Source of the DNA: Lactobacillus gasseri ATCC 33323 = JCM 1131
GTDB lineage: Bacteria; Bacillota; Bacilli; Lactobacillales; Lactobacillaceae
Reading direction: 5' to 3'
Length of the DNA: 64,000 bases
NCBI RefSeq assembly: GCF_000014425.1
Contig: NC_008530.1
Span: 1,674,001 to 1,738,000 of the forward strand
Shown: one piece after another, positions 13,311 to 16,143 of the stretch
How positions within the stretch are numbered: the stretch's first letter is position 1
How the letters are laid out: each line of letters opens with the position of its first letter
Position numbers and translations under genes: made by a program
The notes under the pieces: generated by a model
Database searches by the model: none
What the model saw: the letters and a program-made list of their open reading frames with translations, nothing else
What the model was told of the DNA's origin: nothing

Positions 13311-13341
13311 TAGTTTTGGTGTATAGCGTTAGGCAAAACTA
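13311..13341 (+). promoter_or_regulatory. mRNA hairpin enclosing the nrdI ribosome binding site
   Basis: TAGTTTTG (13311-13318) is perfectly complementary to CAAAACTA (13334-13341). The 15-base loop holds the SD-like TTAGG, and the stem's last base is the A of the ATG. The fold would partly hide the start site. Confidence 0.45.
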
Positions 13342-13802
13342 TGGTAAAAATAGCTTTTTATACAATTACAGGACAAACGCAACGATTCATAAATAAAACG
13401 GGCCTTGATGCACATCGGATTGAGGATGCTCATCCTCAATATCAAATGAATGATAAATATATTTTGATCTTACCGTCGTATCAAGATTTTATGATGGATT
13501 CTGTTGTTGATTTTTTAACATATAAAGATAATAAAGAGAACCTTTTAGGTTTAATAGGATGTGGCAATCGTAACTTTAATGATCTCTTTGCCCAAACAGC
13601 AAAAAAGATCTCTGTTACACTGCACGTTCCGATTCTCTATTTACTTGAACTAAGTGGCAATTCGACTGATGTCAAAAACGTTCGTCAAATTGTCAAAGAA
13701 GCTCGTAAAAAAGAACGGGGTGCTCAAAAAGATTTGCCAGTTCAAAATCCATCTCTTAGCAATATTAGTTTCTTAAGTGACTTCAGGCAGAAAAATGAAT
13801 AA
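13341..13802 (+). CDS. nrdI: NrdI flavodoxin-like protein of class Ib ribonucleotide reductase
   Basis: This 153-residue protein shows the NrdI pattern: the FMN phosphate loop TGQTQRF (residues 9-15), the LPSYQD segment and the hallmark GCGNRNF near residue 74. NrdI uses reduced FMN to supply the oxidant that activates the NrdF metal-radical cofactor. The C-terminus carries about 25 extra residues beyond the conserved core. The stop overlaps the nrdF start (ATGAATAA), so the two are translationally coupled. NrdE and NrdH are absent from the window. Confidence 0.92.
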   Translation: MVKIAFYTITGQTQRFINKTGLDAHRIEDAHPQYQMNDKYILILPSYQDFMMDSVVDFLTYKDNKENLLGLIGCGNRNFNDLFAQTAKKISVTLHVPILYLLELSGNSTDVKNVRQIVKEARKKERGAQKDLPVQNPSLSNISFLSDFRQKNE

Positions 13803-14739
13803 AAAATCTTATTATAAAACAAGTAACTGGAATGCTGTCGAAGATCAAGTAGATCGTTCTGCTTGGGCAAGATTAAATGATATTGTCTACGAACCTCGTC
13901 GTGTTCCAATTCATGAAGATCGAGATGAATTTTCCCATCTCCCTAAAACTGAACAAACTATGCTCTTACATAGTTTTGGTTCTTTAGCTCTTTCATCTAC
14001 TCTCCAGATGAAAGTTTCACTCTCAAAAATAAAACAAGATGCAGAAAATTCTGAAGAAGCTGCTGTCTATAATGCATTGCAATATTTGGAATCAATTAAC
14101 AATAAAGCTTATGGTCATGCTCTAACTGAATTTTCTACTTCTAATGAGCAACGAGATGAAGCTTTTAATTGGGCAAATCAAAATCCATATTTGCAAAAGA
14201 AGATGAGGCTTTTAAATACAGTCTATCAATCCGATAATGCAATTCAGAAAAAGGCAGCACATGTTTTCATCTCAACCGGCTTGTATCATTCGTCATTCTT
14301 TGGACCCTTATATTTATTTGGGCAGCATAAATTACCACGTACAGCGGAATTAATTAAATATGCACTTAGAATAACGACTTTAAATGGCATTTATACAGGA
14401 ATTAAATTTAGACGTGACTTTTTCAACCTCTCTAAAGAAGAGCAAAAGAATATTCATAAATGGGTATATGATTTATGCGATAGATTATATGCTAATGAAC
14501 TTAACCACATTCATCTTCTATATGAAGACACTGGTTTAGAAGATAAAGTTGAACATTATATTCATTACACCTTAAACAAGGCACTTATGAACCTAGGACA
14601 AGAGCCAAAGTATCCTGAGAATGTTGAAACTTTAGATCCCACTTTAACAACAGGTTTGATGGAAAGTGCAATGATTGAAGATTTCTTCTTCTATACAAAT
14701 GCCCATCCAATTCTCAAAATGCATGAAATAAAAAAATAA
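13795..14739 (+). CDS. NrdF-like R2 subunit that has lost five of six metal ligands
   Basis: The ATG at 13795 gives 314 residues clearly homologous over their length to class Ib R2 (NrdF); shared landmarks include NWN at 11-13, EEA at 87-89, NKALMNLGQ at 261-269 and GIYTGIKF at 198-205. Against canonical NrdF, the first Asp is Ser68, the first His Asn102, the second Glu Ser160, the third Glu Thr194 and the second His Asn197. Only Glu99 remains, together with the radical tyrosine Tyr106. The pathway Trp near residue 32 is Tyr, and the acidic/aromatic C-terminal tail that docks to NrdE is missing. Described metal-free class Ie R2 proteins replace only three carboxylates, so this is a different variant. 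It may be a pseudoenzyme, a novel radical protein or a NrdI partner. The frame is intact and well kept. Confidence 0.88.
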   Translation: MNKKSYYKTSNWNAVEDQVDRSAWARLNDIVYEPRRVPIHEDRDEFSHLPKTEQTMLLHSFGSLALSSTLQMKVSLSKIKQDAENSEEAAVYNALQYLESINNKAYGHALTEFSTSNEQRDEAFNWANQNPYLQKKMRLLNTVYQSDNAIQKKAAHVFISTGLYHSSFFGPLYLFGQHKLPRTAELIKYALRITTLNGIYTGIKFRRDFFNLSKEEQKNIHKWVYDLCDRLYANELNHIHLLYEDTGLEDKVEHYIHYTLNKALMNLGQEPKYPENVETLDPTLTTGLMESAMIEDFFFYTNAHPILKMHEIKK

Positions 14740-14769
14740 GGAGTTAGCCCTCAAGGTTAACTCCTTATT
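14735..14769. terminator. Bidirectional terminator after the nrdF-like gene
   Basis: AATAAGGAGTTA and TAACTCCTTATT form a 12-bp stem that includes the nrdF-like stop codon and runs into the end of the converging gene. Confidence 0.8.
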
Positions 14770-15256
14770 TTGTCTTTTTAGCTTTCGTTTTTGATTCTGG
14801 TTTTTGATAATTACGAATGACTTCAATTTTCTCTTCAATTGCTTTAAATAGTAAGTCGCTATACTTATCTGGATCAGCTGCTATTTCGTCACTTGAACCC
14901 AAAATATCGATTCTAAAGTGTGATACATTTACATATTCTGAAATAGTTTCAAAATAAACATTTACTTCATATTCATCTTCGTTATTGCAAAAATTGCTAA
15001 TCTTTTTGTAATTAGTAAAAGGAAGATTAATGATATTACTCTCTAATGCAAAAGTCATTGGTCTTCTTCCACTAATTGCAAGCTGCGTTTGAATAAGTGA
15101 ATTATGCTTAAACGCTTGAACCACTTCACTAATCATCTTAGTTGCAATTTTCTTTAACTTAGTTTTTGTTATTTCGCTATACTTGATTGTTTCAAGATCT
15201 TGAAGATAATCTTGTTCTTCAATTTTTTTAGTTAATTCTTCTTGTTTAATTTTCAC
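14765..15256 (-). CDS. Uncharacterised 163-residue protein
   Basis: A GTG start, about ten bases after AAGGA, begins a charged protein with an N-terminal helical region (Lys/Glu-rich), a central beta-rich stretch and a Lys-rich tail. No signal peptide or membrane segment is visible, so it should be cytoplasmic. No family was recognised. It lies between the nrdF-like gene (converging) and the MazF gene (same strand, about 85 bases upstream) and may be read through from mazEF. Confidence 0.55.
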   Translation of the reverse strand: MKIKQEELTKKIEEQDYLQDLETIKYSEITKTKLKKIATKMISEVVQAFKHNSLIQTQLAISGRRPMTFALESNIINLPFTNYKKISNFCNNEDEYEVNVYFETISEYVNVSHFRIDILGSSDEIAADPDKYSDLLFKAIEEKIEVIRNYQKPESKTKAKKTK

Positions 15257-15341: not shown

Positions 15342-15683
15342 CTAATCAAACTGTAAAGCAAAGCTAAGTAGTTCCATTACCTTAAGCATATCTTCCGGTC
15401 TAAGATGATCTGCTGGTTTTTCATCTAATAAACGCATTCTTGAAAAAGTTTGAATTTGTGCTGCATTTACTCGGCCATGAACATGATAGCCTAGCAAGTC
15501 TAGATATGTCGGGAAGTGATTACCATGTGAAGTAATGGGACACAACATTAAATAATTAGTTTTCTCATTATATGAATTAGAAGACACTACAACTGCTGGA
15601 TGTTTTCCTTTCATTTCTTGTCCAACTGAAGGTGAAAAATCTGCCCATACAATATCTCCTTGTTTAAATTTAATCTTCGGCAT
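15342..15683 (-). CDS. mazF: MazF/PemK-type endoribonuclease toxin
   Basis: From the ATG at 15683 (GGAGG upstream), 113 residues show the MazF pattern: GDIVWADFSPSVGQE, then HPAVVVSS and LCPITS. MazF toxins cut mRNA at short motifs. The frame is open another 24 codons upstream, but those overlap the antitoxin gene and lack an SD. The start overlaps the 3' end of the antitoxin gene by 14 bases, the usual coupling of such pairs. Confidence 0.9.
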   Translation of the reverse strand: MPKIKFKQGDIVWADFSPSVGQEMKGKHPAVVVSSNSYNEKTNYLMLCPITSHGNHFPTYLDLLGYHVHGRVNAAQIQTFSRMRLLDEKPADHLRPEDMLKVMELLSFALQFD

Positions 15684-15921
15684 GACGTAATTCCTCCATC
15701 GCCAAATTTTCCCAAGCTTCCCTTTCTGGTCCTGGTACATCTTCAAATTTAGCATCGGAGGTATAAGGATTCGAAATTTTCGGTATTAAGATCAAACTAC
15801 CATCAGATTTTTGATGAATTGTGTACTCAGTTCCTACCTCTACCTTAAACGAAGCAGGAAGTGAAAAGCCCACTGAGTTACCAACCTTTTGAGTTACAAT
15901 ATGATGAATAGATATTTTCAT
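15670..15921 (-). CDS. mazE: MazE-type antitoxin (AbrB-like DNA-binding)
   Basis: This 83-residue protein has an AbrB/MazE swapped-hairpin domain at the N-terminus (HIVTQKVGNSVGFSLPA) and an acidic C-terminal tail suited to wrap the toxin. It is expected to neutralise MazF and repress the shared promoter. GAGGT precedes the ATG. A small inverted repeat (15941-15954) next to the -10 is a likely operator. Confidence 0.87.
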   Translation of the reverse strand: MKISIHHIVTQKVGNSVGFSLPASFKVEVGTEYTIHQKSDGSLILIPKISNPYTSDAKFEDVPGPEREAWENLAMEELRHAED

Positions 15922-16001: not shown

Positions 16002-16137
16002 GGCGAGAAACATACAAAAGTATGTCAGGGTCTTTGTTTCACAGCCAAAGTAGCCCATCATCAGCACTTCCCGTGCTTTGACTTCTAGAGTCCAGATGAT
16101 CTCTGTCAAAGAACGCATCTCGCGTTTTCCTCGACTC
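15965..16137 (-). ncRNA. Unidentified structured small RNA
   Basis: The strip between the exporter gene and mazEF is clearly richer in G+C than its surroundings and has no reading frame. On the minus strand it begins after tandem TATAAT boxes and ends at a strong terminator. It can fold into an outer GCGAG/CTCGC stem, a TCTTTGACAG/CTGT...CAAAGA stem, a GATCATC/GATGAT stem, and GCAC/GTGC and ACATAC/GTATGT hairpins. An alternative CTTTGAC/GTCAAAG pairing is possible. The motif GCUGUGAAAC recalls some Firmicute 6S RNAs, but the fold is not clearly 6S. Riboswitch hallmarks were not recognised. Confidence 0.6.
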
Positions 16138-16143
16138 GTCGCA

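Follow-up and report, generated by a model that had tools for sequence, protein, structure and literature searches.

An NrdF-like protein lacking most dimetal ligands is paired with NrdI in Lactobacillus genomes that nearly always lack a detectable NrdE

Proteins with the R2 fold have mainly been studied as subunits of ribonucleotide reductases (RNRs), and three described systems come closest to the locus reported here, namely class Ib NrdF with its partner NrdI, the metal-free class Ie R2 proteins, and R2lox. In the B. cereus R2b-NrdI complex, the path from the FMN to the metal site is described as lined by Ser162, Tyr166, Lys263 and Asn267 (PMC9462851). Class Ie proteins, known as VPK and QSK variants, are metal-free and carry a DOPA radical; a GTDB-wide survey deals with these two variants only and reports that virtually every genome with class Ie also encodes an NrdE (PMC11846895). 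R2lox, finally, is described as assembling a Mn/Fe cofactor (PMC6399176). Among open-licence PMC papers, no account of the clade described below was found.

The window, i.e. the whole stretch of DNA that was analysed, comprises 64,000 nucleotides (C1:1674001-1738000) of a single-contig 1.89-Mb genome. It contains a two-gene unit on the plus strand, consisting of nrdI (13341..13802), which encodes an NrdI-type flavodoxin of 153 amino acids, and an nrdF-like gene (13795..14739) for a protein of 314 residues that has the R2 fold without the dimetal ligands. We refer to this protein and its clade as NrdF*. Both frames are intact and overlap by eight bases (13795..13802, plus strand). Pfam assigns NrdF* to Ribonuc_red_sm (1.7e-50), with no other PF00268 match in the genome, and its neighbour to NrdI (1.3e-32); the latter passes both NrdI family models (TIGR00333, 95.1 bits at a cut-off of 74.65; PF07972, 112.9 bits at a cut-off of 27). 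At the nrdF* stop codon lies a terminator-like hairpin of 17 pairs with a T run (14733..14771, plus strand), which is statistically weak (one found, with shuffled versions of this region expected to give 0.9) and fits by its position and stem length. Upstream of the pair follow a putative guanylate-kinase-like frame, two more frames and a divergent membrane-like frame, and downstream a convergent frame. The flanking gene clusters are shared by 16 of 16 contexts (the window and L034-L048), in all of which the pair occupies one chromosomal site. Further downstream, two small minus-strand frames (15342-15921) resemble by eye a MazF/MazE-like toxin-antitoxin pair, which occurs in 7 of the 16 contexts, and a COG3610-DE RNA (Rfam RF03066, 110.8 bits) at 16025-16140 on the minus strand adjoins a 161-aa frame.

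NrdF* is related to NrdF in both its sequence and its predicted fold. In a phmmer search against PDB chains, the NrdF of Streptococcus sanguinis (4n83) was the top match (E 6.9e-72), followed by other NrdFs, and the ligand columns are in register in this alignment. An AlphaFold2 model of NrdF* (mean pLDDT 87.6), in which the ligand positions and Tyr106 are each found within a helix, was superposed by Foldseek on 4n83 with a TM-score of 0.97 (by target length) and an rmsd of 1.3 Å over 284 columns. A preliminary description of the locus had already proposed a conserved NrdF fold in an intact frame, and had put Ser68, Asn102, Ser160, Thr194 and Asn197 at the positions of five of the six metal ligands; the structural match and the open frame confirm the former, and the phmmer register together with alignment A3 bears out the latter. 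A3 holds 27 NrdF* sequences, nine canonical NrdFs of the Lactobacillaceae and one class Ie-type protein (L053). All nine canonical rows have D, E, H, Y, E, E, H at the ligand and tyrosine columns. In NrdF*, the first Asp position (Ser68, 13996..13998, like all following codons on the plus strand) is Ser in 27 of 27 members, the first His position (Asn102, 14098..14100) is Ala in 15 and Asn in 12, the second Glu position (Ser160, 14272..14274) is Glu in 15, Ser in 10 and Asn in two, the third Glu position (Thr194, 14374..14376) is Thr in 26 and Ser in one, and the second His position (Asn197, 14383..14385) is Asn in 17, Ser in nine and Gly in one. The sole ligand position kept throughout is Glu99 (14089..14091; 27/27). 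Tyr106 at the radical tyrosine position (14110..14112) is likewise found in 27/27, and in all 37 rows of A3, so that the invariance of these two residues, which the preliminary description had wished to see examined, holds across the aligned members. Of the six dimetal ligands D-E-H-E-E-H, the window's protein hence retains one and no aligned member more than two: the earlier count of one remaining ligand is correct for the window's lineage and too low for the 15 members that also keep Glu160.

The changes reach beyond the ligands themselves. At twenty-one columns, all nine canonical rows share one residue and NrdF* is fixed to a different one (at least 95%), the near-fixed replacements including Ser68, Asn103, Tyr164, His165, Thr194 and Arg206; 37 columns are fixed alike in both groups, and at 77 canonical-fixed columns no residue reaches 60% of the NrdF* rows. 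His165 (14287..14289), invariant in all 27 members, takes the position of the channel tyrosine (Tyr166 in B. cereus and Tyr163 in E. coli NrdF, the latter number being hand-counted on the phmmer alignment). Judged by alignment register and residue identity, the window's NrdF* probably has no shifted metal site. One could nevertheless imagine that Glu99 and His165, in many members together with Glu160 or with His238 (present in 22/27), bind another metal, for which the appearance of an invariant histidine beside the old site and the retention of Glu99 and, in 15 members, Glu160 could be taken as signs. We consider this improbable, because near the old site the window's lineage has only Glu99 and His165 of these residues, the other candidates vary across members, and His238 sits in a different helix of the model.

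With class Ib NrdF, NrdF* has in common the fold, the adjoining nrdI, the position of the radical tyrosine and the Lys and Asn at the channel entrance. It departs from it by the loss of five of the six metal ligands, the lack of NrdE in the genome, a shortened tail and the 21 new near-fixed residues. Against TIGR04171, the model for class Ib NrdF (cut-off 355), the window's NrdF* fails with 243.1 bits, and five NrdF* sequences scanned reach 197-259 bits versus 487-489 for two canonical Lactobacillaceae NrdFs. It passes NCBIfam NF007183 ('ribonucleotide-diphosphate reductase subunit beta'), which we rejected as a family for the clade, since it gives a higher score (413) to two canonical NrdFs and leaves three of the five NrdF* sequences scanned below its cut-off. 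Class Ie is similar in that there is no usual dimetal site, nrdI adjoins and the tyrosine is kept. However, the class Ie-type L053 reads D-V-H-P-K-H, i.e. the positions of Glu99, Glu160 and Glu194 are replaced while Asp68, His102 and His197 are kept, and NrdF* nearly complements this pattern, with Glu99 retained and the Asp, both His and Glu194 lost. Membership in class Ie was rejected on these grounds, as neither the Asp nor the two His are kept. The idea in the preliminary description of a further step along the class Ie route is not supported, both for this nearly reversed pattern and because NrdE, virtually always present in genomes with class Ie, almost never accompanies NrdF*. R2lox provides a parallel for the use of the R2 fold outside ribonucleotide reduction, but NrdF* has no such ligands and is paired with NrdI, a distinction drawn from the description of R2lox. 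NrdF* is therefore a member of the R2 fold family for which membership in both class Ib and class Ie fails on the tested features.

A profile search identified 30 carriers of NrdF* among 75 Lactobacillus genomes, with 28 open full-length copies, one copy split into two frames (G299) and one remnant of 30 residues (G272); the other 45 genomes gave no match, and 28 of the 60 good-quality genomes carry NrdF*. The carriers are taken to include L. johnsonii, L. taiwanensis, L. hominis, L. gallinarum, L. kitasatonis, L. kefiranofaciens, L. rodentium, L. hamsteri, L. kalixensis, L. ultunensis and L. xujianguonis. A midpoint-rooted tree was built from 26 NrdF* sequences, nine canonical NrdFs and one class Ie-type protein. 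L053 and L083 form long branches in it, and NrdF* is a single clade with 100/100 support whose stem is long, at 1.68 changes per column. Identity to the closest canonical Lactobacillaceae NrdFs is about 38-41%. A family-wide scan of 397 genomes from 40 genera yielded 16 matches of at least 459 bits, all in the genus Lactobacillus, the next among the matches listed being at 326 bits. The presence of NrdF* outside the genus was rejected on this gap and on the ligands of 15 loci from other genera, each of which proved to have all six when its columns were inspected, the remainder being judged by score. Phage and plasmid matches are all below 60% identity, and a pattern-based scan of viral contigs gave no relative. 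No canonical NrdF was seen in the 75 Lactobacillus genomes; the only other R2 matches are second copies in G410 and G412, which score 197-198 bits versus 373-566 for full-length NrdF* frames.

If NrdF* served a class I reductase, a catalytic subunit that receives the radical would be expected. In the genome of the window, NrdE was not found, PF02867 matching only the frame of a class II RTPR (TIGR02505, 898 bits), which is accompanied by a class III NrdD. With TIGR04170, NrdE was detected in only two of the 75 genomes, G410 and G412, which both carry NrdF*, and was not found in the other 28 of 30 carriers. As such, in the window's genome and 27 other carriers there is no known R1 to which a radical could be passed. 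In G410 and G412 an extra nrdF and nrdI lie beside nrdE in addition to the NrdF* pair; the extra nrdF of G412 (L053) is of the class Ie VPK type, and G410 (L054) has a like arrangement. Across the 30 carriers, RTPR is present in 14, NrdD in 26 and neither in three, namely G226, G286 and the 71%-complete G445. G226 (taken as L. rodentium) and G286, both 99% complete, showed no match to TIGR04170, TIGR02505, TIGR02487, PF02867 or PF13597, while nrdI and nrdF* are both open in them; these two strains presumably live on deoxynucleoside salvage. From the near-absence of NrdE and the lack of a match to any RNR class in G226 and G286, we conclude that a reductase role for NrdF* is very unlikely. NrdD co-occurs with NrdF* (26/30 carriers versus 14/45 others, Fisher p 1.8e-6 with kinship ignored), but this association was set aside as a basis, since kinship is uncorrected and NrdD gave no match in three carriers of at least 96% completeness (G226, G286 and G418). 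For RTPR there is no association with NrdF* (14/30 versus 18/45, one of the 18 being a fragment; p 0.64).

One alternative explanation, namely that NrdF* is another metal-free class I R2 beyond class Ie that passes its radical to an R1, is therefore very improbable and already largely contradicted, even though Tyr106 and NrdI are retained and class Ie shows that a metal-free R2 with NrdI is workable (PMC11846895). Apart from the missing catalytic subunits, it is opposed by two features of the protein itself. Behind the DFF motif, the tail measures 14-19 residues in 26 NrdF* rows, whereas the nine canonical NrdFs have 24-31 and the class Ie-type protein has 22; the long C-terminal tail of class Ib NrdF has a role in R1 binding. 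Position 32, Trp in the canonical rows and presumably involved in radical transfer there, is Tyr in 11 of the 27 NrdF* sequences and Trp in 16.

The partner that NrdF* does keep is NrdI. With PF07972 at E 1.7e-10 or better, the genomes with NrdI are exactly the 30 with NrdF*; the remaining 45 give no such match, and the next matches, probably other flavodoxins, start at 1.1e-6. According to the coordinates (listings compared by hand), nrdI adjoins nrdF* in 30 of 30 carriers, and in G070 (taken as L. taiwanensis) the two are fused into one frame of 465 aa. For L038, in which NrdI and NrdF* naturally share one frame, fold prediction gave a pTM of 0.61 and no readable interface. The NrdI of the clade had been regarded as apparently normal, which is true for its flavodoxin core but not for its C-terminus: the family-model match stops at residue 122, and in the clade alignment a conserved extension follows (residues ~123-153; 13707..13799, plus strand), with a motif near N-I-S-F-L-S-D-F/Y-R that occurs with small changes in 14 of 14 clade rows of alignment A2. 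The extension is absent from the sole NrdI of another genus in A2 (L052), and among NrdI matches in the plasmid collection the alignment ends at residue 115-138 in the 15 listed of 243.

Both genes are under strong purifying selection. Among seven genomes of the gasseri/johnsonii group (21 pairs), dN/dS of NrdF* is 0.059-0.136, and that of NrdI among five (10 pairs) is 0.033-0.107; five pairs outside the group gave 0.050-0.169 and 0.061-0.135, respectively, with one pair undefined in each, and G226 versus G286 gave 0.077 for NrdF* and 0.135 for NrdI. These values, calculated by Nei-Gojobori, are approximate since dS is high in many pairs. Together with the adjoining nrdI in every carrier, they uphold the earlier proposal of selection on a coupled pair. 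In all 10 gasseri/johnsonii-group pairs compared, nrdI also shows less synonymous divergence than nrdF*, its least-changing codons among five genomes being 1-20 (2/18 vary) and those from 141 onward (1/9), which might reflect codon bias, an RNA signal or gene conversion.

Both frames are open at 25 of the 30 loci, and the remaining five are broken or remnants. NrdI is broken by a stop in G124 and by frameshifts in G242 (taken as L. johnsonii ATCC 33200) and G402, while NrdF* remains open in all three; NrdF* is split in G299 (taken as L. ultunensis), and in G272 remnants are flanked, as seen by eye, by the neighbours found in the window. NrdI is thus broken or a remnant in four of 30 carriers. 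The frameshifts of G242 and G402 (L037 and L068) share one A-rich stretch, which may reflect independent slippage, phase variation or decay. The NrdI-NrdF* pair is thus useful but, with five of 30 loci broken, dispensable. One might go further and regard it as a relic of a class Ib RNR in slow decay in all lineages, as the broken loci and the 45 of 75 genomes without a match could suggest. A dN/dS of 0.06-0.14, the 25 loci with both frames open, and the 21 new near-fixed replacements together with a new conserved NrdI tail are, however, unlike neutral decay, and we give this idea hardly any credit; for the window's lineage it is already contradicted. Decay of the gene, which the preliminary description had named as evidence against its proposal, is on these values not seen for the window's gene, although five carriers have a broken locus.

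What then might the pair do? By hand count, Ser159, Tyr163, Lys260 and Asn264 of E. coli NrdF, which we infer to be equivalent to the channel residues of B. cereus, align with Thr161, His165, Lys262 and Asn266 of the window's protein. At the channel entrance, Lys262 is kept in 26/27 and Asn266 in 25/27 members; position 161 is Thr in 16, Met in eight, Ser in two and Ile in one. From the sequences, it looks as if the NrdI dock and the channel had been reused and the pocket rebuilt. From our point of view, the best explanation, to which we assign a probability of roughly 0.6, is that NrdF* is a class Ib R2 repurposed as a dedicated metal-free partner of NrdI. This is based on its kinship to NrdF, the single clade, the single site in the 16 contexts examined, the strict pairing with NrdI, the ligand loss, the short tail, the lack of an NrdE match in 28 of 30 carriers and the purifying selection. 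Put as a sequence of events, both the dimetal site and the R1 partner of this NrdF would have disappeared in a common ancestor of the carrier lactobacilli, while NrdI would still dock on NrdF* as on NrdF. The reduced NrdI flavin could then send either electrons or an oxidant, namely superoxide or peroxide, down the old channel into the former metal pocket, which would now be lined by Ser68, Glu99, Tyr106, His165 and Thr194. The last step, in the form that we prefer, is the least certain: the metal-free pocket might use the oxidant to oxidise Tyr106 or a bound small molecule and so serve an end outside ribonucleotide reduction, a tentative proposal against which the odds lean by about two to one. 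The stronger version, that NrdI and NrdF* form a metal-free redox device outside RNR whose oxidised or radical Tyr106 acts on a partner or small molecule, and which would act even in species without a detectable ribonucleotide reductase, is speculative, and we doubt that it is right as a whole.

Alternatively, NrdF* could be a pseudoenzyme scaffold that only holds or tunes NrdI, for instance its flavin redox potential, oxygen reactivity or stability, with the pocket being structural. The variation at positions 102, 160 and 197 would fit such a role, as would the better conservation of NrdI and the retention of the NrdI-facing Lys262 and Asn266 while much else has changed. The invariance of Tyr106, Glu99, Ser68 and His165 in all 27 members down to about 36% identity, with only Thr or Ser at position 194, exceeds the needs of a scaffold, however, and NrdF* is still an open frame in the three genomes whose NrdI is broken; we thus consider this role unlikely, though a serious candidate. 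The same three genomes also count against repurposing as a NrdI partner, as either NrdF* can act alone or decay has only recently begun at these loci; the unique codon changes of G402 (nine synonymous versus three not) are too few to decide. It further counts against repurposing that NrdF* diverges faster than NrdI (36% versus 65% identity between L048 and the window), which is unlike a tightly constrained enzyme, and that conservation of the pocket can serve packing alone.

Overall, a clade within one genus keeps NrdI together with an R2 fold devoid of most metal ligands, nearly always without NrdE, which suggests that the NrdI-NrdF* pair was recruited for a new job. As such, NrdF* corrects the reductase inventories of common gut lactobacilli and would be a natural test both of the role that NrdI plays on its own and of metal-free chemistry in the R2 core.
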